Shown in pieces: positions 14,356-53,431 of a stretch of DNA of 64,000 nucleotides; position 1 is the first letter of the stretch, and the number at the start of each line of letters is the position of its first letter. The DNA comes from Candidatus Saganbacteria bacterium (GTDB lineage Bacteria > Margulisbacteria > WOR-1 > XYC2-FULL-46-14 > WPAF01). Under the pieces are notes generated by a model that saw nothing but the letters and a program-made list of their open reading frames with translations, ran no database searches and had not been told where the DNA came from. The translations under genes and the position numbers were made by a program. The stretch spans positions 1 to 64,000 of the forward strand of contig JACRPM010000005.1 of NCBI GenBank assembly GCA_016223205.1, read 5' to 3'.

Positions 14356-14981
14356 ATGGCTTCTTTATAATCTTTCGCATAGAATATCGCCGAACCAGCG
14401 ACCAAAACATTAGCGCCGGCCTTGACCGCTTCTCTGGCAGTTTCAGGATTGATCCCGCCGTCCACTTCTATATCTATGTTCAATTTTCTACGTTCCACGT
14501 TCTTTTTCAATTCCTTAATTTTAGGAAGGACTTCGGGCATGAATTTCTGCCCCTCAAAACCGGGATTGACGGTCATCAGTAATACCATGACCACTTTATC
14601 CAGAATAGGAAAGACGGAATCAATGGGGGTCCCGGGGTTGACCACCACCCCGGGTTTGACATTGTTGCGCCTGATAAGTTCGATATCCTCTGATAAGTTT
14701 TTACTGGCCTCGACCTGGATGGTGATGATATCCGCCCCCGCTTTGGCGAAATCGGGGATATAACGGTCGGGATTTTCTATCATCAAATGGACATCGAGCG
14801 GGAGCTTGGTCATCTTCCGGCAGGCCTTGACCACCAGGGGGCCGATCGTGATATTGGGGACAAAATGCCCGTCCATCACATCCACGTGAATAAAGTCCGC
14901 TCCGGCGGCCTCCACTTTTTTGATCTCTTCTCCCAGGCGGGAAAAATCGGCGGAAAGGATCGAGGGCGCTATTTTTACCAT
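14334..14981 (-). CDS. rpe: Ribulose-phosphate 3-epimerase
   Basis: A 215-residue TIM barrel that interconverts ribulose-5-P and xylulose-5-P. APSILSADFSRLGEE, HVDVMDGHFVPNITIGP, LDVHLMIENP, MTVNPGFEGQKF and EVDGGINPETA are all present, including the two catalytic Asp and two His metal ligands. A GAACGTGGAACGTAGAA heptamer array (minus strand, 14486-14502) sits in the loop before IDIEVDGG. The start overlaps the PASTA gene by 7 bases. Confidence 0.95.
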   Translation of the reverse strand: MVKIAPSILSADFSRLGEEIKKVEAAGADFIHVDVMDGHFVPNITIGPLVVKACRKMTKLPLDVHLMIENPDRYIPDFAKAGADIITIQVEASKNLSEDIELIRRNNVKPGVVVNPGTPIDSVFPILDKVVMVLLMTVNPGFEGQKFMPEVLPKIKELKKNVERRKLNIDIEVDGGINPETAREAVKAGANVLVAGSAIFYAKDYKEAIWQMKKL

Positions 14982-15415
14982 ATGGGCTCCTCCTTGGGTA
15001 TTTCGGGAGAGGGTTCGGGCGTAGCCGAATGGGTCAAAGGCATCACCTGCGGCTTGCCCAATATCACAAATACGGGTCGGCCCATCTTAACTGTCCTTCC
15101 CGGTTCGGGGCGCTGGAAGGTCACCATATCGGAATTTTCTTCGTAAGCGCTTTCTACCTGCAGTTTAAGCCCCTCCGCCTCGACCCTCACCCGGGCCTCG
15201 CTTTCCGAAAGCCCGATCAGGTCGGGAACGGTAACTTCCGGCAGGGAAGAAAAGTTCATGGTCAGATAGCTTAAGATCACCGGCGAGGCGATCAACAGCA
15301 TCATAATGAAAATAAAACGCAGGGGCCGTTTTATCTTAAGCCGCGAGACCAGGGCGGCGACCGCCAGAGCCACCACCACCACGAACAACAAATAATATAT
15401 TAAAAGTTCGCGCAT
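14975..15415 (-). CDS. Membrane-anchored single-PASTA protein
   Basis: A 146-residue protein with two hydrophobic segments (about 5-22 and 31-50), one PASTA domain (about 56-120; VPDLIGLSESEARVRVEAEGL, RPEPGRTVKMGRPVFVILG) and a Pro/Glu-rich tail. PASTA domains usually form the outer part of PknB-type kinases and bind peptidoglycan or lipid II. Here the domain is a separate gene, overlapping the kinase-fold gene upstream by 16 bases. The pair looks like a PknB split in two. Confidence 0.85.
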   Translation of the reverse strand: MRELLIYYLLFVVVVALAVAALVSRLKIKRPLRFIFIMMLLIASPVILSYLTMNFSSLPEVTVPDLIGLSESEARVRVEAEGLKLQVESAYEENSDMVTFQRPEPGRTVKMGRPVFVILGKPQVMPLTHSATPEPSPEIPKEEPIW

Positions 15416-16341
15416 GACCGCATGATCAACATATAGATCAATCCCGCCAATATGGAAAGCCCGATCACGATCAGGAGAAAGAAACTGCGTTTGCGTTCTT
15501 GTCTTACCACTACCACTTCCTGCGCCTCGAGCGGGGGCCGGTTTTCGAGCTCAATGGGAGGAAAATCGATCATTTCCCGCTTTTCAACCAGGGTCTTTTG
15601 TTTTAAGCTTTGGAGAAGATCTTCAATGCTCCTAAAGCGCAGCAGAGGATCGGGCTGCAGGGCTTTATCCAATATATCTTCCGCATATTTGGGCAGTCCC
15701 GGGGGAGGGGGCAGGGGGCCGTTAAATTTGGGAGTGGGCGGGAAATCCGTAATGCCGGTCAGCATTGCGTAATAGAGCAGGCCGACGGAGTAAATATCCG
15801 AAGAAGCGCGCGCCACCTCTCCTAAGATCTCTTCAGGGGACATGAACTGCGAGCGGCTCAACACCACTACCGCTTTTTGGGGAAGGGCTTCCTTGACCTC
15901 TCCTTCGATCGTAAAATCTACCAGCTTTATTTGGCCGTCACCCAGGATAAAGACGTTCTCGGGCTTGATCGCCCCATGCACTAGTCCGGCCCGGTGGGGA
16001 AAAGAAAGGGCTTCGCAGACCAGCCCGATGATCCGGTCGGCATCAAACAGCTCGGCTTCTCCTAAAGTCCGGCCCTCTACGAACTCGCGAACATAGTAAA
16101 ACCCCTGCCAGCCGTAGTCTCCGTCGTAGAGCTTGGCAATGCCGGGATGGTCGATCTCGGAAAGCAATTTGACCTTGGCCTTCATGTTCTTGATGAGCGC
16201 GGAATTCAACGTCCCGCGCTTGTAGATCTTGATGATGACCTGTTTTTCACCGGAAAGAAAGGTGCCGCGATAGGTGAGAGAAAAGGGATTTTCCCCGATC
16301 TTGGGCCCGGTCTTGAACCTGGATTTAAGGAACTTTTCCAT
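15400..16341 (-). CDS. PknB-like kinase-fold protein, probable pseudokinase
   Basis: A 313-residue protein: a kinase fold (about 1-265), then a basic linker and a C-terminal membrane helix (about 287-306). The start is ATG 16341, sharing a base with the gmhA stop. The ATP-binding Lys38 (VIIKIY), Asn129 and a DFG-like D142-F-T are kept. The HRD motif reads H122-G-A, so the catalytic Asp is Ala124. The alpha-C Glu position reads Lys56, and the Gly-rich loop lacks GxGxxG. Phosphotransfer is therefore unlikely; a scaffold or sensor role with the adjacent PASTA protein is the simplest reading. Confidence 0.8.
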   Translation of the reverse strand: MEKFLKSRFKTGPKIGENPFSLTYRGTFLSGEKQVIIKIYKRGTLNSALIKNMKAKVKLLSEIDHPGIAKLYDGDYGWQGFYYVREFVEGRTLGEAELFDADRIIGLVCEALSFPHRAGLVHGAIKPENVFILGDGQIKLVDFTIEGEVKEALPQKAVVVLSRSQFMSPEEILGEVARASSDIYSVGLLYYAMLTGITDFPPTPKFNGPLPPPPGLPKYAEDILDKALQPDPLLRFRSIEDLLQSLKQKTLVEKREMIDFPPIELENRPPLEAQEVVVVRQERKRSFFLLIVIGLSILAGLIYMLIMRSCANF

Positions 16342-39821: not shown

Positions 39822-41516
39822 ATGAGGAAATTAAAGATCGGTCTCGGACTATTGATCGCCGTGGTAATGCTGGTGGGTGTGGGGTGGGGAGCCGGACCTA
39901 CTCCTCTTATTAATTACAGCCAAATAATGAATATACAAGGCAAATTAACTAAAAGTCCCAGCTTGGGTGGGGGAGAGCTTCCCGATGGATTTTATGACAT
40001 GACTTTTACCCTACAAAGGTCCTTGATAGGCGCGCTTCCCAGTTGGGCTGATGCTGGCTGGACGGAAACCAAGAGAGTCATTGTAACAAAGGGGATTTTC
40101 AACGAACAACTCGGCGAAACCGCGGCTTTAGCATTGCCGGTATTCGATCCCCAATACGATTATCAAATGCGAATTACCGTCAATGGCGAGAACCTGGGAG
40201 CGCAAGATATGGTTGGCATCCCCCTGGCCCGGGCGGTAAGAGGGACAGCTCTCAATTTTAATGATTATCCCGTTGATGCCAGAATCAATAACACCGGTAA
40301 CGCTCAAAACGCGATTTACGGAGAGACGAATGGCTCGGGTTTTGGATTAAACGCAAAAGGGATAGGGAACACTTCCGGCGGCATCAAGGGTGAAGTAACA
40401 ACCGCGACCAATTCTAATTACGGGGTTTATGGATATACGGCTGGAACAGGTGCCGCAGTTTATGGGAACAGCGTCGGGGGATACGGTATTTCGGGTAAAG
40501 GTCCAACCACGAAAGGCGGAGTTGTCGGCACGACCAACTCATCTCTAACCTCAGCTTATACTAATTTTGGCGTGCTGGGAGATTCAAGCGGGGGATATGG
40601 TGTGGTTGGGAACAGCTATAGTTCCTCTGGTGTTTATGGCAAAAGTGTCAGCGGGAATGGCATCATTGGGGCGAGTACCAGCGGAAATGGTATCTATGGA
40701 ACAAGTACCAGCGGATATGGTTTGTGGGCAGAGGGGGCAAGGGGCGTAATAGGGTTTGATAGAGCTAATTCAATTGATGCAAACGGGGCCTATGGAGTAT
40801 TAGGAGGGCTCCCTCTTCATACCAGCGCAACCGAGACCGGGGTTCGCAAATACGGAGTGTTCGGGCAGGCAGATGGTAATAATAGGGCAGTATTGGGTTA
40901 TTATCGCCTGGCAGATGGGGCAACAATACCAACTACTTATGCCGTGTATGGATACAGCGTAGATGGCACCGGCGTTTATGGATTTATTAACAGCGTCAAG
41001 GCTGATGGCAGTACTCCGAATGATAATACAAAACCAGCGGTTTATGGATACAATTTAAGTCCGGCACCAGGAGATAATCCCGGGGTCAAAGGAGAAAGTG
41101 CGAGCGGGCATGGAGTATACGGAAAGTCACAGATCTATGGCAAGGCTGGTGTCTATGCCACTAATACTTATTCTGGGACTTATGCTCCGGGATATGGGTC
41201 CGCATTAGAGCTTGGCCAAGGCGCACTAAAGATTGATAAAGGTTATGCATTACAGCCTTCAGTTAACGGTGTTGTTACAATAGATAAAATATGCGGAAGG
41301 GTAGCGTTAAGATCGGGAAGCGATGAATTATATATTGCCAGCAAATATTTAAACTTTAATTCTGTTGTTCTAGTTTCCATGGAAGACAATCTGCCTAATG
41401 GTATTAGATATTGGAAAATAGGGAGTTACACCAGCGGGGTACTGCTTCATGTTAAATTTAATGGCATTATAGGATCAGGTGAAAGTGCGATAGTGCATTT
41501 CTTAATTATTAATTAA
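39822..41516 (+). CDS. Secreted surface protein with GxYG repeats and LIIN C-terminus
   Basis: A 564-residue secreted protein: signal peptide (1-23), an N-terminal domain with MNIQGKLT and DGFYDMTFTL (about 30-140), then about 300 residues of short Gly-rich repeats (forms such as GVYGKSVSGNG, GIYGTSTSGYG), and a C-terminal beta domain ending HFLIIN. Repeat length and pattern resemble trimeric fibre or beta-helix proteins. A paralogue lies at 42043, with 62 bases identical between them, and a third member at 50670 shares both end domains. Likely exposed on the cell surface; adhesion is a guess. Confidence 0.8.
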   Translation: MRKLKIGLGLLIAVVMLVGVGWGAGPTPLINYSQIMNIQGKLTKSPSLGGGELPDGFYDMTFTLQRSLIGALPSWADAGWTETKRVIVTKGIFNEQLGETAALALPVFDPQYDYQMRITVNGENLGAQDMVGIPLARAVRGTALNFNDYPVDARINNTGNAQNAIYGETNGSGFGLNAKGIGNTSGGIKGEVTTATNSNYGVYGYTAGTGAAVYGNSVGGYGISGKGPTTKGGVVGTTNSSLTSAYTNFGVLGDSSGGYGVVGNSYSSSGVYGKSVSGNGIIGASTSGNGIYGTSTSGYGLWAEGARGVIGFDRANSIDANGAYGVLGGLPLHTSATETGVRKYGVFGQADGNNRAVLGYYRLADGATIPTTYAVYGYSVDGTGVYGFINSVKADGSTPNDNTKPAVYGYNLSPAPGDNPGVKGESASGHGVYGKSQIYGKAGVYATNTYSGTYAPGYGSALELGQGALKIDKGYALQPSVNGVVTIDKICGRVALRSGSDELYIASKYLNFNSVVLVSMEDNLPNGIRYWKIGSYTSGVLLHVKFNGIIGSGESAIVHFLIIN

Positions 41517-42042: not shown

Positions 42043-43692
42043 ATGAGAAAATTAAAAGTTGGGCTCGGACTCTTGATCGCGGCGGCAATGCTGGTGGGGA
42101 TAGCGGGGATGGGGTGGGGTGTACCGAACATTGTTAATGTGCAAGGAAGGCTGGTGGATAAAGCCACCGGAAATCCCATCGCAAGTCAGACGCTCGATGT
42201 TACTGTCAACTATTACCAAACGCTAACCGGAGGGAGCCCAATATCTGGCATATCGGGCGCGGGTTATTCTCCTGCGACCGATGCCAACGGAGTATTCAAT
42301 CTAGCGCTGGGGGAAGGGCTTCCAGATAGTAACAAACCGGATTTTTCAGCCGATCTTTATGTTGAGTTTGTCGTTACTGCTCGAGTTGGGGGCGTATTAA
42401 GAACCGAAACTTTGGCGCCCCGCCAGAGGATGGTATCTGTCCCAGGAGCATTAAGTGTAAAAGGCGTGGCGACCAACTTTAATACCACTCCGGTTGATGC
42501 TCGGATCAGCAATGTTGGAAATTCCCAGAATGCCGTATACGCAGAGACTAACGGATCGGGATTTGCCTCATATGGCAAAGGGACCGGGAGCACTTCTGGA
42601 GGGGTAAAGGGAGAAGTGACCAACACGACCAATTCCAATTATGCGGTTTCTGGTTATTCTGCCGGGACCGGTGCAGCGGTTTACGGGAATAGCGTCGGAG
42701 GATATGGTATTTCGGGTAGGGGTCCAACCACCAAAGGCGGGGTCACAGGGACAACCAATGCTTCTCTGACTTCAGCTTTTACCAATTTTGGCGTGCTGGG
42801 AGATTCAAGCGGGGGATATGGTGTGGTTGGGAACAGCTATAGTTCGTACGGTATTTATGGAATAAGCGTTAGCAACTCGGGTATCTATGGATCAAGCACA
42901 AGTGGCTCGGGCATCTTTGGAGACAGCGCCAATGGTTCGGGAGTTCGCGGAAGAGGTGCTGGGGGATCTGGGACTGCCGGGGTTTGGGGCGAAAATGTCG
43001 CCGTTTCTAATGGTTGGGGGATTTATGGTACAAGTGCAAATGGGTATGGAGTGGGCGGAAATGGCGTAAATGCAGGAGTTTGGGGGACATCAACCGGGAC
43101 TGCGACATCTGCTCTTCCTATGTTGGGAGCGGGTGTGTTTGGCAATAATACCCAAACTACAATTCCAACTGGCGGAATTGCTTCTCCCGGGGTGTATGGG
43201 GCTAGCGCTTCTGGACCAGGTATTCAGGGAAATGGAAATAAAGGGGTTGTTGGGACTGGAACTACAATTGGGGTCGACGCAACCGGCGGTACTATGGGAG
43301 TGAAAGGCGAAAGCAATGGGGTGGCTGGTGTGGCGGCTTATGCCAGAGCTGCTTCTGCTTCTGCTCTGCTGGTTCAAAATACAGTTGATGGGACTGCTAT
43401 AGATCTCGTTCAAGGGAAAATTAAGATTGCCGCGTCAACTGGTATGGGCACTTCTTCGGTCCCCAAGAATACACCAGCCGGCACATTTACAATTAGTGGA
43501 ACTACTTCCCTTGGTGAGATCATATATAATACTTATGTGACCGCAAATTCAATTATTCTTTTATCGGTGCAGAATAGCAGCGCAGCTATTCCTCTCTATG
43601 TCCGAACAAAAAGTGCGGGTAATTCTTTTACGGTAGCATGGTCAGGGAGTGCCCCAATAGGTACCTCAGTCGGCTATTTGATAATTAACTAG
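42043..43692 (+). CDS. Secreted surface protein, paralogue of 39822
   Basis: A 549-residue paralogue of the previous surface protein: signal peptide (1-25, RKLKVGLGLLIAAAMLVG), N-terminal domain with NVQGRLVDKATGNPI, a FNTTPVDARISN block shared with the first copy, Gly-rich repeats, and a C-terminal domain ending GYLIIN. The segment 42784-42845 is identical base for base to 40563-40624, while flanking sequence differs at synonymous sites, pointing to recent gene conversion. The ribosome site AAGGAGG precedes it. Confidence 0.8.
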   Translation: MRKLKVGLGLLIAAAMLVGIAGMGWGVPNIVNVQGRLVDKATGNPIASQTLDVTVNYYQTLTGGSPISGISGAGYSPATDANGVFNLALGEGLPDSNKPDFSADLYVEFVVTARVGGVLRTETLAPRQRMVSVPGALSVKGVATNFNTTPVDARISNVGNSQNAVYAETNGSGFASYGKGTGSTSGGVKGEVTNTTNSNYAVSGYSAGTGAAVYGNSVGGYGISGRGPTTKGGVTGTTNASLTSAFTNFGVLGDSSGGYGVVGNSYSSYGIYGISVSNSGIYGSSTSGSGIFGDSANGSGVRGRGAGGSGTAGVWGENVAVSNGWGIYGTSANGYGVGGNGVNAGVWGTSTGTATSALPMLGAGVFGNNTQTTIPTGGIASPGVYGASASGPGIQGNGNKGVVGTGTTIGVDATGGTMGVKGESNGVAGVAAYARAASASALLVQNTVDGTAIDLVQGKIKIAASTGMGTSSVPKNTPAGTFTISGTTSLGEIIYNTYVTANSIILLSVQNSSAAIPLYVRTKSAGNSFTVAWSGSAPIGTSVGYLIIN

Positions 43693-45001: not shown

Positions 45002-45457
45002 CTATTTGTTAAGTTCGGAGACGACCATGTCGGTCAGGTCCGTGCCGCCGGTGATGACCACCTGTTTGTCCACCACGACCTCTATCCCCATCTTCTTAGC
45101 CACGGTGGTGACGGCTTTGACGATGTCCTGTTGGAGCCGGATAGTGAGCTTTTCGTTGGTCTTTAAGAGCTCTTCCCGCTTGGGGGCCAGCTTTTTCTCG
45201 AGGTCGTCTTTCATTTTATCAAGGTCTTCTTTGGCTTTGCCTTGCTTTTCGGCCTCCTGGAGCTTCTTCTGGGACTCGTCAAATTCCTTCTTAAAGGCCT
45301 CTTCCTTCTTGGCCAGCTCGCCCTGCGCCTTGCTGGTCTCTTTGTATTCCTTAAAAACCTTCTGCACGTCTATAAAACCCATGCCCACCAGGCCCTGGGC
45401 GCCCGCCATGGTCGCCAAAAATCCGGACAAAATGATCGCTGCCAGTAATTTTTTCAT
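45002..45457 (-). CDS. skp: OmpH/Skp family periplasmic chaperone
   Basis: A 151-residue protein: signal peptide (1-20), GMGFIDVQKVFKEYKETSKAQ, then a long charged coiled coil (about 40-115) and a beta C-terminus (VVVDKQVVITGGTDLTDMVV). Skp carries unfolded outer-membrane proteins. An extended -10 TGATATAAT on the minus strand (hexamer 45495-45490) and an AGGAGG ribosome site precede it. The skp-lpxD order is the classic envelope pairing. Confidence 0.88.
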   Translation of the reverse strand: MKKLLAAIILSGFLATMAGAQGLVGMGFIDVQKVFKEYKETSKAQGELAKKEEAFKKEFDESQKKLQEAEKQGKAKEDLDKMKDDLEKKLAPKREELLKTNEKLTIRLQQDIVKAVTTVAKKMGIEVVVDKQVVITGGTDLTDMVVSELNK

Positions 45458-45564
45458 TATAGGATCCTCCTTCTATTTAACAAGCAAAAATTATATCACA
45501 GGACGATTTTCAAATCTAGTGAAATTTTCGCCGTCCCCTGCCGATAAACAAGGAGGAGATAGAT

Positions 45565-46197
45565 ATGTCGGGATTTCATATAACTTTGAACGAAGGGGAA
45601 TACGAAAACAAGTATAGGGCGGCCCGGGCCGTGCTTACAAGGATTTGTCATGTCGAAAATCCTGATAGCGCGCAGCAGCAGGCGGCCGCCGACCTATTGG
45701 TCGAGGAAAATCATCAGCATCTGTCCAGCGACCACTCGACTTGGAATCCCTTAAGCGACGAATCGGCGACCGAATCGGAATGGCCGGCCGATTGGGATAC
45801 CCGCTGGTTCGCCGATTTTTATTCAGATACGGAAATATTTGTTCCGGATGATATCTGCCGGGTTGCGCCCGAACCGCAGCCGGTCCAGGTCCAACCGGAG
45901 CAATCACCGGTCACCCCCCCGCCTCCGCCCGCCGATGCCGGCACCCAGCCCGACGCGGGAGCGGATGATCAAGATGCGGGGGCCACGCCCCCAGCCCAGC
46001 CCGACGCCGCAACCACGACCGGGGACGCCGGAGTAGATGCGGATGGTGATTCGGTAAATGATGCCGACCAGGCGGAGGCCGACGATGCCGCCCGCCGAAG
46101 AGACGCCCAAAGACGCGAAAACGGCAACGGCCATGAGACCGGAACGCAACCGAGCGATGCCGGACGGCCCGAAGCGCCGGTAATTCCGGGAACATAA
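45565..46197 (+). CDS. Acidic Asp/Ala/Pro-rich protein of unknown function
   Basis: A 210-residue protein: a possible globular part (1-100; MSGFHITLNEGEYENKYRAA), then a low-complexity tail rich in Pro, Asp, Ala and Gln (PDAGADDQDAG-type repeats). No signal peptide, membrane helix or known motif. A strong AAGGAGG site starts a run of four genes (to 50673) that includes a Ser/Thr kinase. Substrate, adaptor or exported partner roles are open. Confidence 0.65.
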   Translation: MSGFHITLNEGEYENKYRAARAVLTRICHVENPDSAQQQAAADLLVEENHQHLSSDHSTWNPLSDESATESEWPADWDTRWFADFYSDTEIFVPDDICRVAPEPQPVQVQPEQSPVTPPPPPADAGTQPDAGADDQDAGATPPAQPDAATTTGDAGVDADGDSVNDADQAEADDAARRRDAQRRENGNGHETGTQPSDAGRPEAPVIPGT

Positions 46198-46209
46198 GGA
46201 GATAAATAT

Positions 46210-47622
46210 ATGGATGTCAGGTCAATTTGCACCGAAAGGGGAGTAACGATCCGGCCCCTGCCCGAAGGCCAATTAATGCCGGAAGAAAGCATTTCGGTAG
46301 AAGGCCAGCTGGCCACTCTTACCGAGCTTGATTTCGCCCTTAACTCTTTAGTGCAACTTATGCAGCTTGACCCTCAAGTAAAAGAGATCCTGGGACAGCC
46401 GGGACAGGCAGGCGGACTGCGCGACCATACCTGGGATATTTGGGTCGAAGCCACCAATGCGCTTTCCGAACAAACCGGTATCGCTCCGGCCGAACTTAAC
46501 ATCGAAGCCCTGGTCAAAGAAGTCGTAGGTCGGCTGACAGCCGAAGACAATTCCAGCAACGCCGGCGATATCTTCAAGCTCAATGGATTGCTCGAGCTTT
46601 TAGCCGGTGTTTACGGCCCCATCCGCGAAGCCCTGCAGGGAGACCAATATCCCCAGGCCGCGACGGTTTTCTACGCGACCTATATTGAAAACCGCTCTTT
46701 CAAGCTTACCATCAAGGCCATTCTGGAAAAATTGAACCAAGCGCTTTCCACGGAAGTTAGTTCCCGGATCAATCTCTCGCAGATCGATTGGAGCTCCCTT
46801 TCGGCCTTGTCCGTGACCGAGGTTGTTTCTCGGGTCAACTTACTGATCAGTGAGTCCTGCGCAGACTACAGCGCGATGGTTCCCCAACCGCCGGTTATAG
46901 TCCCGCCTCCTCCACCGCCACCTCCGCCCCCGCCGCCTCCTCCTGCGGATGAGCTGGAATTCAATTTTGCGCTTTCCCTGGCGCCGGCCTACGGGTTGCT
47001 GGTCTACGGCGACCAGCGGCATTCATCTCTCGAAGCCGATTTCTCTTTGCACGGCATGGCCGGTGCGCGGTTGGATTTTAACAAAGAGCTTTCTCTCCAG
47101 ATCGATTATTCCGGCCTGCACAATGTTTCCCAAGATTTTTCTTACAGCCGGGTAAGCCAGGATTCGGCTTATGTTTCCCTGGCGATCGATAATTACATTC
47201 CACAATTGGGCTTCTTGACCCAGCACGATAATTTAAACGGGGAAAGAAGCTTTTTGGGAGCGGCCGGATTGGGGATCAATTTCTACGATGGTTTGTTATA
47301 TCCCTTTGCCGGGGGCCTGGCGGGGACTTCTTTCGGCGGATACATTGGGATCCGTTCATCTTATACCTGGGAAGAATTAATGAAGCTAAATGTATCCGGC
47401 CAGCTTTTCTACAGCTATTTAGACGGTCACGAAGCGGGCGCTTCGGCTTCCGTTTCATTTAGCCCGGTCTCCTTTTTGGGTAATGATCTTCAGATAGGGA
47501 TTGGAGCCGGCGGCGCCTATGCGGATGATTCCGCCGGTATATTAGCCGGTCTCGTCCTAAGTTATGGGCCCCTGCTCGCTCCCCAGCCCGTTTCGGTAAG
47601 GCAATTAATAGGAGGATATTGA
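46210..47622 (+). CDS. Two-part protein: helical domain, polyproline linker, beta-rich domain
   Basis: A 470-residue protein: a helical N-terminal domain (1-225), a linker of about 14 consecutive prolines (near 235-250), and a C-terminal domain (about 255-470) with alternating, aromatic-rich strands (LEFNFALSLAPAYGLLVYGD, LSLQIDYSGL, LSYGPLLA) that looks like an outer-membrane barrel. No N-terminal signal peptide is found, so export by Sec is unclear. It overlaps the kinase gene by one base. Confidence 0.65.
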   Translation: MDVRSICTERGVTIRPLPEGQLMPEESISVEGQLATLTELDFALNSLVQLMQLDPQVKEILGQPGQAGGLRDHTWDIWVEATNALSEQTGIAPAELNIEALVKEVVGRLTAEDNSSNAGDIFKLNGLLELLAGVYGPIREALQGDQYPQAATVFYATYIENRSFKLTIKAILEKLNQALSTEVSSRINLSQIDWSSLSALSVTEVVSRVNLLISESCADYSAMVPQPPVIVPPPPPPPPPPPPPPADELEFNFALSLAPAYGLLVYGDQRHSSLEADFSLHGMAGARLDFNKELSLQIDYSGLHNVSQDFSYSRVSQDSAYVSLAIDNYIPQLGFLTQHDNLNGERSFLGAAGLGINFYDGLLYPFAGGLAGTSFGGYIGIRSSYTWEELMKLNVSGQLFYSYLDGHEAGASASVSFSPVSFLGNDLQIGIGAGGAYADDSAGILAGLVLSYGPLLAPQPVSVRQLIGGY

Positions 47623-48905
47623 TGCCCGGAGGTGCCCAAGCTACTAGAGTAAGATTTGCCGACACGCACCCGACTGCCGCCAGGGTGGGGCGTAAGGTCG
47701 CTCGCATCGGCGCGCCGTTGGCAGCGGGAGCGGTTTCAGCTATTTCTTTTCTGGCGCTATCTTCCGCAGCCGCTCCCCTGGCCGGGTTGGTAGTCCTGAC
47801 AGCTGCCGGATTATTGGCCGGCGAGTTTGTGATCGCGCGGCCTATCGCTAATCATTTTAGATTAAAAAGATTTGATCCGGGAAAGCTTGCGAAACTGGAA
47901 GCCGGGAAAAGCGATGCGGAAAGAAGGCTAAGAGACCTTTCATTTGACGGCGGGAACAATGTCCTTATAGGGTCGTTGGGCGGCGGGGGCATGGCCTACG
48001 TGTTGAAGGTCTTTAATCGGGGCACGGAAAAAATGCGAGTTTATAAACTCCCCCGGCCGGAAGTGTTGATAAACCCGGAATACCTGGCCCGTTTTAATCG
48101 CGAGATGGCGGCGATGCGCACCCTGGAAGACCCCTCCATTGTGCGGATCGAGGATGTTATTAATGTGGATCACGAGACCTATTGCCGACTTACCCATCAA
48201 GACATAGCGGCATATTTAAAAAGTCTTCCTGCGGAACAGCGGAAGCAATTGGTCGTGCCCCTAAGCATTCCCGGCATAATCATGGAATACGTGGATAGCC
48301 CGACCTTGAGGCAATATTTCCAAATGGGCATAAACTGCTGGGATAACGCCGAAAGATTGAGAGTGGGGATAGCTATTGGACAGGCGATAAAAGGGGTCCA
48401 CAGAAAAGGAATTATTCACCGGGACCTCAAGCCCGAAAACATGTTCGGCATCCCCGACCCAACGAATCGCTCCCTGCTTCATCCCATCAATCCTATAAAG
48501 CTTTTTGATTTTGGCATCACCAAGAGAATAGGGGACCAGGGACTGACCCAGGATGGAACTGCCATGGGGACTCCCGAATATATGTCCCCCGAACAGGCCA
48601 AAGGCAGTGATTCTCTTGATAAAAGGTCCGATGTTTATTCCTGGGGAGTTATGCTCTGGGAATTATTGGCAGGAGAGCCGGTTTTTGGGATCTGCGAGGA
48701 CGGCAAGACGCCCGCTTATTTAGTTAAGATTTTAACCAAGCCGATACCCAAGGTTGAGGCGCTGGGGTTCGGGAAAGGCGATCCGGACCTGGTAAAGCTG
48801 ATGCAATGGTTCTTTGATAAAATATTGGCTAAAGATCCCAACCATAGGTTCTCCACGATCGACGAGGCCTTGCCCTATTTAGAAGAAATGTATTCGAGAT
48901 CATAG
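47622..48905 (+). CDS. Ser/Thr protein kinase with N-terminal membrane segments
   Basis: A 427-residue kinase. Hydrophobic helices at about 28-75 precede a complete Hanks-type domain (about 105-425): GGGGMAYVLKV glycine loop, VYKLPRP Lys, IIHRDLKPENM with the catalytic Asp, LFDFGITKR (DFG), GTPEYMSPEQA and SDVYSWGVMLWELLAG. Unlike the protein at 15400, all catalytic residues are kept. The start ATG 47622 follows GGAGG with 6-base spacing. It is embedded in an unusual acidic/beta protein cluster. Confidence 0.9.
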   Translation: MPGGAQATRVRFADTHPTAARVGRKVARIGAPLAAGAVSAISFLALSSAAAPLAGLVVLTAAGLLAGEFVIARPIANHFRLKRFDPGKLAKLEAGKSDAERRLRDLSFDGGNNVLIGSLGGGGMAYVLKVFNRGTEKMRVYKLPRPEVLINPEYLARFNREMAAMRTLEDPSIVRIEDVINVDHETYCRLTHQDIAAYLKSLPAEQRKQLVVPLSIPGIIMEYVDSPTLRQYFQMGINCWDNAERLRVGIAIGQAIKGVHRKGIIHRDLKPENMFGIPDPTNRSLLHPINPIKLFDFGITKRIGDQGLTQDGTAMGTPEYMSPEQAKGSDSLDKRSDVYSWGVMLWELLAGEPVFGICEDGKTPAYLVKILTKPIPKVEALGFGKGDPDLVKLMQWFFDKILAKDPNHRFSTIDEALPYLEEMYSRS

Positions 48906-48930
48906 ATAATGTCCCTAAGGAGGAAATAAC

Positions 48931-50673
48931 ATGGTAGCGATCGTAAAAGTTCCCGGAATGATGTTCCAGCAAAGAGCGGTCACGATTTCCCAGGGTGAGC
49001 CGGCGGAAAATGACAATCCGCCGCCTTCCCCGTCGGAGGGCGGATTACAAGGATCGATAGGCCAGGTGTGGCAATGCACGGCCTTTAGCGCCGGCCCGGC
49101 CCCCACCGAAGATGTGCAGGATGCCGGGGATTATGATTATTTTCCGGATGCCGAGGACCAGCCGGACACCATCGAAGTGGATGTTGACGGCGACGGCGAA
49201 GCGGATCTCGAAGTTACCGATGAGGCGGATATTCCCGATGAGGGAGTGATCGTCGAAGACGGCGATACCCCGGATGTTGATGAAGATGGAGACGGTGAGG
49301 TGGATGTGGATGAGGACGGCGATACTGTTCCGGATGGGGAAGATGCGGATGTGGCTGAAGATGGGGAGGTTTCGGGGCCTTGCGATCACGCCCCCTTTGT
49401 GGACCCCCTGCCTTTCTATCCGGCAAGGGGAGCGACGGATGTGGCGCTTTCTCCCTCTCTCACCTTCGATTGGCCCGATGGGGCGGAAGTCGATCCGGGA
49501 GATTCGATCGCAAGCTATAACCTTATTGTCAGCGTCAATCCCGACCTTAGCTCCCCGGTGATCAACGTAACCGGATTGCCCTCCAGCGAATACCCGGTTC
49601 CTGCCGGAGCCCTGGCGGATGCGACGACCTATTATTGGGCGATGGAGGCAGTGGACAATTGCGGACGAGTGACCCGTTCCACGATCTGGGATTTTACCAC
49701 TGTTCGAACCTGCTTACCCTACACCTTTATAGATACCGATTTCACGACCGGCGCCCTAAGCGGCGGCGCGATAAATGACGTTGGAACCCTAAGATTAGCC
49801 GAAGATACCAGCGCCTGGACGGGGAGGTATGAGGGGGATGTTTTGCCGGAGGCGGCGGGGTTGACCAGGACGGGAACTTTTTCTACCGCTCCCGCAAGCG
49901 ACGGCGATATCTTGACGGCCGGCACCCTGGGAACCGATGCCCTGGGATATTATGAGACCAACGCCGGATTAGATAATGCGACCGGCTGGGTGGTGGAAGC
50001 CAGGGTGAGAATAGATGGTCAGGATGGAATTACCCCCCCCTATAATGTTGGGTTTACCTTAAGAGCGGACGACGGCAGGAGGGCATTGGAATTTAGGATA
50101 GATGGAGGATCCAGCGGTCAAGTGTGCGAACCATTTAATACTGGCGGATGTTATCCGATAACGACCGGTTTTCATACTTATAGGATAGAATCACAAGGAG
50201 ATAACTTTATATTATATGTTGATGGCTTGCTGGCTATAGATGGTACGGGCATGTCTGGTTCCGGCACTAGTGGTACAAATCATATTAGGATAGGGGACCA
50301 AATAACCAATCCGGATAGCTCCTTTAGCATTGATTATGTTCGCTGGTACAATCTGGATGATCAGATTCCCTATGTTAGCCCGGGAGCTTATGAGGGAGCT
50401 ACGGTTGACACCGGGATGGTTGATAACGATCTGACGGGATCAGCCGTCAGTTGGAATCCGGCTTCGATTCCGGGCGCGGTGTCGGTAGCGGTCAGGGCCG
50501 GTAACTCACCCGATCTTACCGCTGTTCCCTGGTCAGCCGAACTAACCGACAATCCGGCTATGCTTCCGATGCTGAATGGGCAGTATATTCAATGGAGAGC
50601 TACTCTTACGGCGCCATCGCCGGCCGTGACGCCGGTGATCGAGGATGTTTCCGGCGGAACAATTTGCCCCTAA
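48931..50673 (+). CDS. Acidic calcium-binding-like protein with Ig-like and LamG-like domains
   Basis: A 580-residue protein. After about 55 residues an Asp/Glu-rich stretch (about 60-150) holds TSP3/dockerin-like calcium motifs (DVDGDGEADLE, DEDGDGEVDVDEDGD). A fibronectin/Ig-like domain follows (about 155-260), then a concanavalin/LamG-like domain (about 270-475), then a short beta C-terminus. No signal peptide is apparent (MVAIVKVPGMMFQQ). It ends 4 bases into a convergent gene. It closes the kinase-containing run. Confidence 0.75.
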   Translation: MVAIVKVPGMMFQQRAVTISQGEPAENDNPPPSPSEGGLQGSIGQVWQCTAFSAGPAPTEDVQDAGDYDYFPDAEDQPDTIEVDVDGDGEADLEVTDEADIPDEGVIVEDGDTPDVDEDGDGEVDVDEDGDTVPDGEDADVAEDGEVSGPCDHAPFVDPLPFYPARGATDVALSPSLTFDWPDGAEVDPGDSIASYNLIVSVNPDLSSPVINVTGLPSSEYPVPAGALADATTYYWAMEAVDNCGRVTRSTIWDFTTVRTCLPYTFIDTDFTTGALSGGAINDVGTLRLAEDTSAWTGRYEGDVLPEAAGLTRTGTFSTAPASDGDILTAGTLGTDALGYYETNAGLDNATGWVVEARVRIDGQDGITPPYNVGFTLRADDGRRALEFRIDGGSSGQVCEPFNTGGCYPITTGFHTYRIESQGDNFILYVDGLLAIDGTGMSGSGTSGTNHIRIGDQITNPDSSFSIDYVRWYNLDDQIPYVSPGAYEGATVDTGMVDNDLTGSAVSWNPASIPGAVSVAVRAGNSPDLTAVPWSAELTDNPAMLPMLNGQYIQWRATLTAPSPAVTPVIEDVSGGTICP

Positions 50674-51440
50674 TTAATTATCAGATAATTAAAATTGATG
50701 TTGGTTGGGGCTTTCGTGGTCGAGTTCGTAAAACTAACCGTAAAACTACCGTCAGATATAATAGGGGCAACCAGGGCCTCGTAGGTAATCCCCGTGTTTC
50801 TGGTTAATGGCGTAATAAAAATATTACTATTAGCAGTTGCCGCAGTGTTGGTAATCGAAACGTTAGAGCCACCTGAAAGTATAGTTCCCGTCCCCACGCA
50901 AAACCCCGTCCCCGTCCCGCCGGTTTGAAACTTGTTTATTTTAAGGGTTTCAGTCGAGGTCGTGCCGGTGGTTGAAATGCTGCCGGAAGTGGCGATCGTG
51001 ATATTGCTTGCCAAGCTGCTGCCGCTGATGGATCCGGCGGCCACCGTGTCCGCGGAAGCCGCGCTGTCGGCTTTGATGGCGTAAGCTACGGAATTTATTT
51101 TTAAACGGGGAGAAAGCGTTTCGCTCTCGACTGCGATCTCCAGCCATCGGTCATTGCCGTCAAAAACCGTGGTAGGGGAAGAGATCGGCCCTAATTGGGC
51201 TGTGTATTGGCCGTTAGAAGCGGTTATAGAGGTTGGGCCGAAAGAGGCCTTTTCCGTGCCGGCGGTTGAGGCATCATAGATCTTAAAGGTCATGGACTTG
51301 GTCCCGGTGACCAGATTCCCCGCACTGTCCCGCAGAGTCCCCTGATAAGTTAGATAGTAAGGCACCGTGGACCCGGCCATTGTGGCGCCCAAAAAGAAAA
51401 CCGCGATCATCAGCAGAAAAGACCTTGAATATTTCTTCAT
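50670..51440 (-). CDS. Secreted surface protein with LIIN C-terminus
   Basis: A 256-residue secreted protein: signal peptide (1-21), an N-terminal domain (YLTYQGTLRDSAGNLVTG, MTFKIYDA) of the type seen in the two larger surface proteins at 39822 and 42043, a short Ser/Thr-rich middle, and a C-terminal beta domain ending FNYLIIN. Start ATG at 51440 follows GGGAGG. It lacks the long Gly repeats of its relatives, so it shows the minimal two-domain form. Confidence 0.8.
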   Translation of the reverse strand: MKKYSRSFLLMIAVFFLGATMAGSTVPYYLTYQGTLRDSAGNLVTGTKSMTFKIYDASTAGTEKASFGPTSITASNGQYTAQLGPISSPTTVFDGNDRWLEIAVESETLSPRLKINSVAYAIKADSAASADTVAAGSISGSSLASNITIATSGSISTTGTTSTETLKINKFQTGGTGTGFCVGTGTILSGGSNVSITNTAATANSNIFITPLTRNTGITYEALVAPIISDGSFTVSFTNSTTKAPTNINFNYLIIN

Positions 51441-51524: not shown

Positions 51525-51533
51525 GTGGGCAGA

Positions 51534-52337
51534 TTGAGAAGAATAATCGCGGCAATAGCGTTCTTTTTCCTGTTGGCCGGGCTTTCCTCGGCCTACACGG
51601 TTACCGGCGAGTCCTTTGCCTCTGCCGGAGGATCTTCAACTTCCGCTAATTATGCATTGTACTCTTCGATGGGCGACGGTTTGGCGGCCTCCGCGGTTAC
51701 CGGAGAAGCCGTTTCACCCACCATCAGCAATATTCAATTTGACGGCAAGACAGTTATCAGCGGTGATTATGTTTCCGCAAATCCCACCATCACCGCCACC
51801 ATTACCGACGATTCTTCGGGGATCGACACCGCCCGCTCGGCGGTAGAACTTGATGGGAGTTTTACTTATTTGTCCGCTTTACCGGCGGGATCTTCCTATT
51901 TGGCCGGCAGTTTAAATTATAAGCCCGCCCTCACGGTGGGGACGCATTCTATAACATTCCATGCCGCGGATCTGGCCGGCAACTGGGCCACTTCCGAGGC
52001 CCTAAGCTTCAAGGTTGACAGCGGAGAGGTCAAGATCTCGGGCGCGGCCCTCAATTATCCCAATCCTTTCAATCCCGCTTCCGGGCAAACCACCGAGATC
52101 AATTACGAGCTGAATATTAATGCGGATATCGTGATCTATCTTTATGATCTTATCGGCCGGCCTATCAAGAAGATCACTTGTCCTTCCGGAACCGATGGGG
52201 GAAGGGCTGGTTATAATCGCGTGACCTGGAACGGCATTAGTGATTTTGGGGAAATAGTGGCGAATGATGTTTATATCGCGCGGATAACCCAGGGAGGCAA
52301 GCAGATCGGAAAATGCAAAATCGCGGTCTTAAAATAG
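51534..52337 (+). CDS. Secreted protein with Ig-like and FlgD-like C-terminal domains
   Basis: A 267-residue protein: signal peptide (RRIIAAIAFFFLLAGLSSA), an Ig-like domain (about 55-165; DDSSGIDTARSAVELDG), and a C-terminal FlgD-like domain (LNYPNPFNPASGQTTEINYE, then GYNRVTWNG and KIAVLK). Such C-terminal domains serve as sorting or anchoring modules in several diderm phyla. It overlaps a PorV-like gene, repeating the pairing at 55132/59489. Confidence 0.8.
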   Translation: MRRIIAAIAFFFLLAGLSSAYTVTGESFASAGGSSTSANYALYSSMGDGLAASAVTGEAVSPTISNIQFDGKTVISGDYVSANPTITATITDDSSGIDTARSAVELDGSFTYLSALPAGSSYLAGSLNYKPALTVGTHSITFHAADLAGNWATSEALSFKVDSGEVKISGAALNYPNPFNPASGQTTEINYELNINADIVIYLYDLIGRPIKKITCPSGTDGGRAGYNRVTWNGISDFGEIVANDVYIARITQGGKQIGKCKIAVLK

Positions 52338-53431
52338 CTGTTTTGGCCTGGCTTATATGCTTTAGCGCAAGCCAAGGGGAGGTCTTGGATCCCAGCCGGG
52401 TGGGGATGGGAGCGCGCACCCTGGGATTAGGCCGGGCGCAAGCGGCTCTGTCCGACCTTTCTTCCGCCTTTATCAACCCCGCCAACGCCGCCCAACTGGA
52501 CCGTCTTTCCATTTCCAGTATGTATACCAACCTTAACGAAGATGTCGCTTACAACATGATAGGACTGGGGTTTCCCATCGGGGATGGAAAATCGGGTTCT
52601 GTGGCTTTCTCATATCTGGGAGCGGGGGTGAGCGGCGTTCAGGTGACCTCGCGCGACGCCGACAGCCGCACTATCGCGACTTCCTCTTCAAATTATTCCA
52701 GTAAACTGGCGGTCATAAGCTATGGGAAAAAGGTGTTTCCCCAGGCCTCTTTCGGAGCGGCGCTTAAGCTGTACCTGCGCTCATTCGATTCGGTGAGCGG
52801 GGGCGATGCCCAGGGCTTCGATCTCGATGTGGGGGCTCTGTTTTATCCCCGTGACAACCTAAAGGTGGGAGTAGCCCTGCAAAATATCCTGCCGATTGAG
52901 GCGGCTAACTTAAAATGGGGCACCGGGCTAAAGGAAGACCTGCCGATAAATATTCGCGCAGGGATTAATTATTCTCCACGCCAAGATCTTACTCTGGTAG
53001 GAGATTACGATGTCCTAAGCGGGATTCACGCGGGAGCGGAATGGCAGCTGCACAAATTCTTTTGTCTCCGGGGCGGGGTGGATATGGTTCCTACCGGCAA
53101 AAACTCTTCCGCTACCAATTTTTCCGCCGGGGCGGGATTAAAATATCAGGGAATCGCTTTTGATTACGCCTATTATTATGATTCAACGATCAATTCCATC
53201 TCTTCGCATTTCTTCTCGCTGGGGTTTGAAATGGCGCCTAAAGCGGCCCCGCCTATTAAAATAGAACCCGTTAAAATTATTACTCCCGAGGTAAGCGCTC
53301 CGCCGGTTCCAATGATCGTCAAGCCCCTTCTGCCGGTGATCAAAAAGAAAACAGTCCCGCCCAAAAAGCCGCCGGTTAAACCCAAGAAGAAGAAAATCGC
53401 CGCGATAAGAAAATATTCGAGACACCGCTGA
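52313..53431 (+). CDS. PorV/PorQ-like (UPF0164) outer-membrane protein
   Basis: A 372-residue protein: signal peptide (about 1-21), then a FadL-like barrel beginning RVGMGARTLGLGRAQAALSD and FINPANAAQL, the hallmark of the PorV/PorQ (UPF0164) group. After the barrel a Pro/Lys-rich tail (about 310-372) has KKKTVPPKKPP-type repeats. PorV works in type IX secretion; other machinery is not present in this window. The start overlaps the FlgD-domain gene by 25 bases. Confidence 0.85.
   Translation: MQNRGLKIAVLAWLICFSASQGEVLDPSRVGMGARTLGLGRAQAALSDLSSAFINPANAAQLDRLSISSMYTNLNEDVAYNMIGLGFPIGDGKSGSVAFSYLGAGVSGVQVTSRDADSRTIATSSSNYSSKLAVISYGKKVFPQASFGAALKLYLRSFDSVSGGDAQGFDLDVGALFYPRDNLKVGVALQNILPIEAANLKWGTGLKEDLPINIRAGINYSPRQDLTLVGDYDVLSGIHAGAEWQLHKFFCLRGGVDMVPTGKNSSATNFSAGAGLKYQGIAFDYAYYYDSTINSISSHFFSLGFEMAPKAAPPIKIEPVKIITPEVSAPPVPMIVKPLLPVIKKKTVPPKKPPVKPKKKKIAAIRKYSRHR

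Follow-up and report, generated by a model that had tools for sequence, protein, structure and literature searches.

Locus and gene content

We analysed a 64,000-nucleotide window of DNA from contig C2 of a Candidatus Saganbacteria genome (1.57 Mb, 92% complete), in which four consecutive genes on the plus strand, here called A, B, K and D, form an operon-like arrangement at positions 45565-50673. Gene A (45565-46197) encodes a protein of 210 amino acids (aa), with a small domain followed by a Pro-rich and Asp/Ala ('DAG') linker. Gene B (46210-47622, 470 aa) encodes a helical domain (residues 1-225), a polyproline linker (about residues 227-246) and a domain predicted to be a barrel of 12 antiparallel strands (residues 247-470, encoded at 46948-47622). 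Gene K (47622-48905, 427 aa) encodes an N-terminal transmembrane hairpin and a Ser/Thr kinase domain. The product of gene D (48931-50673, 580 aa) has a cysteine (Cys49), an acidic DxDGDG stalk, an Ig-like/LamG-like region and a conserved C-terminus ending in TICP.

A preliminary description of this DNA, made from its letters and open reading frames (ORFs), had listed the four ORFs as each having a strong ribosome-binding site. A strong Shine-Dalgarno site indeed precedes each of the four genes, and one start codon had to be corrected. The likeliest start of K is ATG at 47622, instead of TTG at 47619, and it overlaps the stop codon of B by one base (TGATG). B and K therefore look translationally coupled. 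The spacing is 12 bp between A and B, -1 bp between B and K, and 25 bp between K and D.

Conservation of the gene order

The window was compared with 31 genomes of its class, in which its own genome is G000, and with 43 other genomes of the phylum. A first search for relatives with B found six genomes, with A directly 5′ and a kinase directly 3′ wherever the contig permitted. Following K and D elsewhere revealed the four-gene order also in G003, G007, G011, G014 and G015, where B was too diverged for the first profile. With a profile of 11 B proteins, B was detected in 13 of the 31 class genomes and in none of the remaining 43. This profile added G004 and G030, both with A immediately before B; K immediately follows B in G004, and the contig of G030 ends within B. 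A was upstream of B and K downstream in every testable genome, with A-B-K identities of about 20-35% among the 13 genomes. With the start of K set, spacings in the relatives range from -13 to +28 bp. Apparent B-K gaps of 284-386 bp in G011 and G014 disappear with an upstream K start, which also adds the hairpin.

The A-B-K arrangement is well beyond chance. The preliminary description had made its proposal depend on whether the genes are kept together, and they are: A-B-K in 13 genomes where testable, and D beside K in seven (G000, G002, G003, G007, G011, G014 and G015). An orthologue of the window D occupies the same place in G002 (40%). When D was searched for by profile independently of synteny, 9 class genomes had it, of which 7 also had B; of the 22 that lacked D, 6 had B (Fisher p = 0.017).

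A and B have no match in Pfam, NCBIfam or PADLOC, and literature searches returned no description of genes A, B, K and D. The proposal of an undescribed unit thus stands: A-B-K-D is real, class-restricted and, as far as literature searches reach, undescribed. Among 84,980 named genomes, a single B protein used as query gave no match, and a two-row B alignment gave one relative, Candidatus Saganbacteria JAFGDE010000015.1 (G019:C25 in our set). A phage or plasmid origin was rejected, as B had no match in phage or plasmid records or in viral contigs. G017 carries a second A-B-K copy on another contig (G017:C13, L032:8118-14325), with an in-frame TGA in B and a long kinase of 975 aa. This copy is apparently a broken or recoded paralogue.

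The kinase

K had been described as an intact membrane Ser/Thr kinase, and closer analysis bears this out. Its Hanks kinase domain is complete (PF00069, E = 1e-31). Residues K142, E161, H266-R267-D268, N273, D296 and G298 are invariant in 10 unit kinases, and F297 and E324 are nearly so. The N-terminus forms a hydrophobic hairpin that most unit kinases share. The nearest solved structure to the kinase domain is PknB. The best NCBIfam model is NF033483, at 156.6 bits against a cut-off of 450, and its match is confined to the kinase domain. K carries no PASTA domains and does not qualify as a PASTA kinase (PknB/Stk1 equivalog).

Because PADLOC profiles for PD-T4-6, MAD6 and PglW match K, we considered an anti-phage defence kinase cassette. 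Such matches are, however, expected of any Hanks kinase, and the NCBIfam equivalog scores are far under their cut-off. No match to a defence family was obtained for A, B or D. The locus is restricted to the class and is next to envelope genes rather than in a defence island. A defence function is therefore very unlikely. PD-T4-6, MADS and BREX were each rejected, as the matches of K are generic and the specific partners of these systems are unmatched.

On a kinase tree, the unit kinases cluster beyond shuffled labels (2 of 500 shuffles were as low). The tree is too diverged to reveal a single origin, and in some lineages, such as G017, the kinase may have been exchanged. That a kinase is kept in position though its sequence is not points to a role for kinase activity.

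Other kinases were seen in these genomes. A separate small kinase is encoded in the window at 14975-16341 on the minus strand; in G009, G010 and G015, the gene after its orthologue encodes a membrane protein that has PASTA-like repeats, so that one PASTA kinase may be divided between two genes here. Some relatives (G003, G007 and G001) have up to ten divergent kinases, several of them in very long frames of up to about 1700 aa, suggesting a lineage-specific expansion. The window's own genome has a second kinase-centred cluster (G000:C3:40000-58000; L020, L030) with two kinases, hairpin and polyproline proteins, large helical proteins and an A-like 'DAG' protein. Two lipoproteins there (L030) have unusually long n-regions before the lipobox.

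Paired cysteines and a predicted barrel

Only three positions are the same in all 11 B proteins compared, namely C7 and C217 (window numbering) and G376, and C7 and C217 are the sole cysteines of B in several genomes, the window's included. A shows a parallel pair, C28 and C98, which are its only cysteines; in both proteins the second cysteine lies just before the Pro-rich linker. These pairs suggest disulphides in A and B and thus an oxidising, extracytoplasmic location.

AlphaFold models of full-length B from two sequences were helical in the N-terminal half and all-beta in the C-terminal half, with a predicted local distance difference test score (pLDDT) of 53. The barrel domain modelled alone had 12 antiparallel strands of 10-16 residues each (pLDDT 56, predicted template modelling score 0.51). 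When this barrel was compared with the PDB by Foldseek, the top 50 matches were all outer-membrane barrels or complexes containing one (best E = 1.4e-4). TM-scores were near 0.5-0.6 against PcoB, OmpG, invasin and FapF. Residues in the strands of B alternate beyond shuffled sequences (p = 0.0006) between a face of L/A/F/Y/I and a face of S/G/Q/D/N. The convergence of model, structural matches and alternation on an outer-membrane barrel is suggestive, not proof. A search for remote homology had been recommended in the preliminary description. The structure search linked the modelled barrel of B to outer-membrane barrels. Searches of solved structures with sequence profiles of B and D yielded nothing useful.

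The sole family match of D in the window, to LamG_3, is below threshold (23.3 bits versus a cut-off of 27.6), and D orthologues in G029 and G017 have Ig-like domains above the Pfam cut-off. A cysteine precedes the acidic stalk in the D proteins with a known start (C49 in the window).

Export signals and acidic leaders

The preliminary description held that A, B and D look like surface proteins and lack Sec signals, and noted that misplaced starts might hide ordinary signal peptides. For the window this statement is correct. None of A, B and D has an in-frame upstream start or an N-terminal stretch of signal-like hydrophobicity, so that a signal hidden by a misplaced start is ruled out for these three genes. 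A and D of the window also lack the charged n-region, hydrophobic stretch and lipobox cysteine of a lipoprotein.

For the relatives, the statement holds for B, which has no signal peptide in any of them, but often not for A and D. In G011, G014, G015 and G030, A begins with an ordinary lipoprotein signal (in the last from an upstream ATG), and it probably does so in G018. D in G011, G014 and G015 is lipoprotein-like: a long n-region leads into a hydrophobic stretch and a cysteine. In G017, four further proteins beside its two unit copies have a hydrophobic stretch ending in D-C. The lipoprotein signals on A and D of relatives imply that A and D are probably envelope proteins. Judging from these sequences, the window versions probably lost or replaced a signal, and the missing signals would be partly a lineage trait. 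BamA-type Omp85 and LspA are both encoded in the window's genome.

A different type of N-terminus was found in G019 and G029. In each of these genomes, A and D share a genome-specific leader ending in GC (0 of 2000 shuffles); the cysteine stands in the motif SxGC in G019 and TLxGC in G029. A profile built from four G019 proteins gave two new matches (E = 2e-10 and 2e-6), for a set of six proteins on four contigs (L015, L057, L127, L139, L140). A profile built from two G029 proteins gave four new matches (E = 2e-14 to 3e-5), for a set of six proteins on six contigs (L016, L058, L148, L149, L150, L151). The leader-bearing proteins of each set are otherwise different from one another. These leaders are acidic (net charge -1 to -7), with a mean hydropathy before the cysteine of -1.15 to 0.75, against 1.1 to 2.7 for ordinary lipoprotein signals, one of which sits beside G019 leader proteins. 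Profile searches of the window's genome found no such leader set, and A and D of the window share no leader similarity. The acidic, Cys-ending leaders are the most unusual observation here; as sequences, they are unlike a Sec or a lipoprotein signal.

Three other explanations of the unit can be compared with the evidence. The proteins may be ordinary Sec-exported envelope proteins, in which B, and A and D of this lineage, have degenerate signals that escape simple inspection; K would be no more than a regulator of expression, and there would be no new route. The normal lipoprotein form of A in four relatives fits this, as do the n-region, hydrophobic stretch and lipobox-like cysteine of D in three and the two lipoproteins with long n-regions at the second kinase locus of the window's genome. 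It does not fit the window A, B and D, which have neither a hydrophobic stretch nor an alternative start. Nor does it fit B, which is signal-less in every genome, or the G019 and G029 leaders, with their acidity and low hydropathy compared with ordinary lipoprotein signals. We regard this explanation as rather unlikely, if the most credible of the alternatives. An undescribed, non-Sec route or signal, by which B and its partners, some with acidic Cys leaders, would be exported and anchored under control of the hairpin kinase, seems doubtful. The signal-less B of every genome and the G019 and G029 leaders speak for such a route, and the lipoprotein signals on A and D of relatives speak against it.

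The third explanation keeps the proteins inside the cell: K would organise and phosphorylate them as a scaffold, either intracellular or associated with a membrane, and the barrel-like domain would be soluble or lie in an internal membrane. The lack of signals on A, B and D of the window fits this, and the kinase domain of K, being cytoplasmic, would reach them. The unit is also near parB, a chromosomal housekeeping gene, in G004 and in three genomes of family f9. Against it are the paired invariant cysteines, the lipid-facing strand pattern and membrane-barrel matches of B, and the lipoprotein signals on orthologues of A and D. D also has surface-type Ig/LamG domains and is adjoined by Sec-signal surface proteins. 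We consider an intracellular scaffold improbable.

A model of the unit

We favour, with about even confidence, the reading of A-B-K-D as a conserved module of the cell envelope (surface) in Candidatus Saganbacteria. The parts of this model observed directly are the conserved order, the orthology, the kinase, the paired cysteines and the lipoprotein signals on A and D of relatives. B is predicted to be an outer-membrane 12-strand barrel with a polyproline linker and a disulphide-closed periplasmic helical domain, in a layout like that of FapF. A and D would be partners held at the envelope. D is predicted to act as an adhesin or matrix protein whose LamG/Ig-like head projects on the acidic stalk. 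K would be anchored in the inner membrane by its hairpin, with the kinase domain in the cytoplasm. It might sense the state of assembly and adjust it by phosphorylating cytoplasmic targets or partners not yet exported. We infer this mechanism from the features above.

Several observations weigh against the envelope module. The barrel models are of low confidence (pLDDT 53-57) and come from two sequences, and the extreme C-terminus of B is not a classical beta-signal. The lack of a signal peptide on B in all genomes examined would be unusual for a BamA substrate. The kinase is turned towards the cytoplasm, and its partners would be outside. The kinase tree needs 8 label changes for the 13 unit kinases, so the kinases may have been partly exchanged. 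D is elsewhere in the genome, not beside K, in G004, G017, G019 and G029, and no D was found in G018 or G030. The unit is also dispensable, because 18 of the 31 class genomes are without it.

Envelope biology of the candidate phyla near Cyanobacteria is almost unexplored, and the unit offers a concrete, testable system. In this class, a eukaryote-like kinase is bound into one operon with surface proteins and a predicted outer-membrane barrel. A signal-less B, together with acidic Cys leaders on unrelated proteins of one genome, poses a sharp question of how these proteins exit the cell. Should the leaders tag cargo for another route, they would represent a novel type of protein address.

Comparison with known systems

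The closest architectural parallel to B is FapF of Pseudomonas, which has a periplasmic coiled coil, a disordered linker and a 12-strand outer-membrane barrel (PMC5557850). As in the layout predicted for B, it combines a helical N-terminal domain, a linker and a 12-strand barrel, with surface partners co-encoded, and several FapF chains were among the Foldseek matches of the B barrel. No sequence similarity between FapF and B is detectable, and B differs further in its two invariant cysteines and its missing signal peptide. Fap components are exported by Sec and need the cysteine protease FapD (PMC5557850). The unit does not qualify as a Fap system: no gene or Pfam match for a FapD-type C39 protease was found in the block; amyloid repeats were not separately tested. 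The Fap system as described also has no kinase.

The kinase domain of K resembles PknB of the PASTA kinases (PknB/StkP/PrkC). Those have one helix with an extracellular sensor, whereas K is anchored by an N-terminal hairpin and is PASTA-less. Similarity to general modules of outer-membrane lipoproteins and porins is seen in the nearby Skp and PorV-like genes and in the lipoprotein form of A in relatives. The unit differs from them in belonging to no catalogued family and in having a kinase fixed in the operon.

MopE-like, DAG-rich surface lipoproteins share Asp-rich stalks after a cysteine with D, and Cu-binding_MopE motifs occur in neighbours of the unit in G017. D of the window differs from them, with no MopE motif match and no lipoprotein signal. 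On G017:C80 (L017:113-10544), the unit is flanked by several Asp-rich proteins that have these MopE-type Cu-binding motifs and share the segment '...IPPRYAFLFIFLAALSDC'.

Neighbouring genes

Upstream of A, and divergent from A-B-K-D, are lpxD and skp, the latter an skp/ompH-type gene for an outer-membrane-protein chaperone (45002-45457, minus strand). The intergenic region between skp (minus) and A (plus), at 45458-45564, is the presumed promoter region. In three genomes, those of the window, G003 and G004, skp adjoins the unit or lies close to it. In G004, lpxD-skp is 5′ of the unit and parB is 3′. These flanks join the location seen in the window (skp/lpxD) with that of family f9, in which three genomes also have the unit near parB.

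Downstream of D are a Sec-signal, fibre-like protein gene of the PYYLTYQG type (50670-51440, minus strand), a gene for a secreted protein with an Ig-like part and a 'YPNPFNP' C-terminal domain (51525-52337, plus strand), and a gene for a Sec-signal, PorV/TraF_2-like outer-membrane protein (52313-53431, plus strand). The fibre-like type neighbours D in nine genomes, and the YPNPFNP-domain type is also a neighbour of D in relatives. G002 and G015 retain the PorV/TraF_2-like gene as part of the block, and in G004 it is near a D homologue.

Three Sec-signal proteins of the window (39822-41516, 42043-43692 and 50670-51440) have similar C-terminal ends. The end '...YLIIN' is found in the second and third, and over their N-termini the first two are clearly paralogous.

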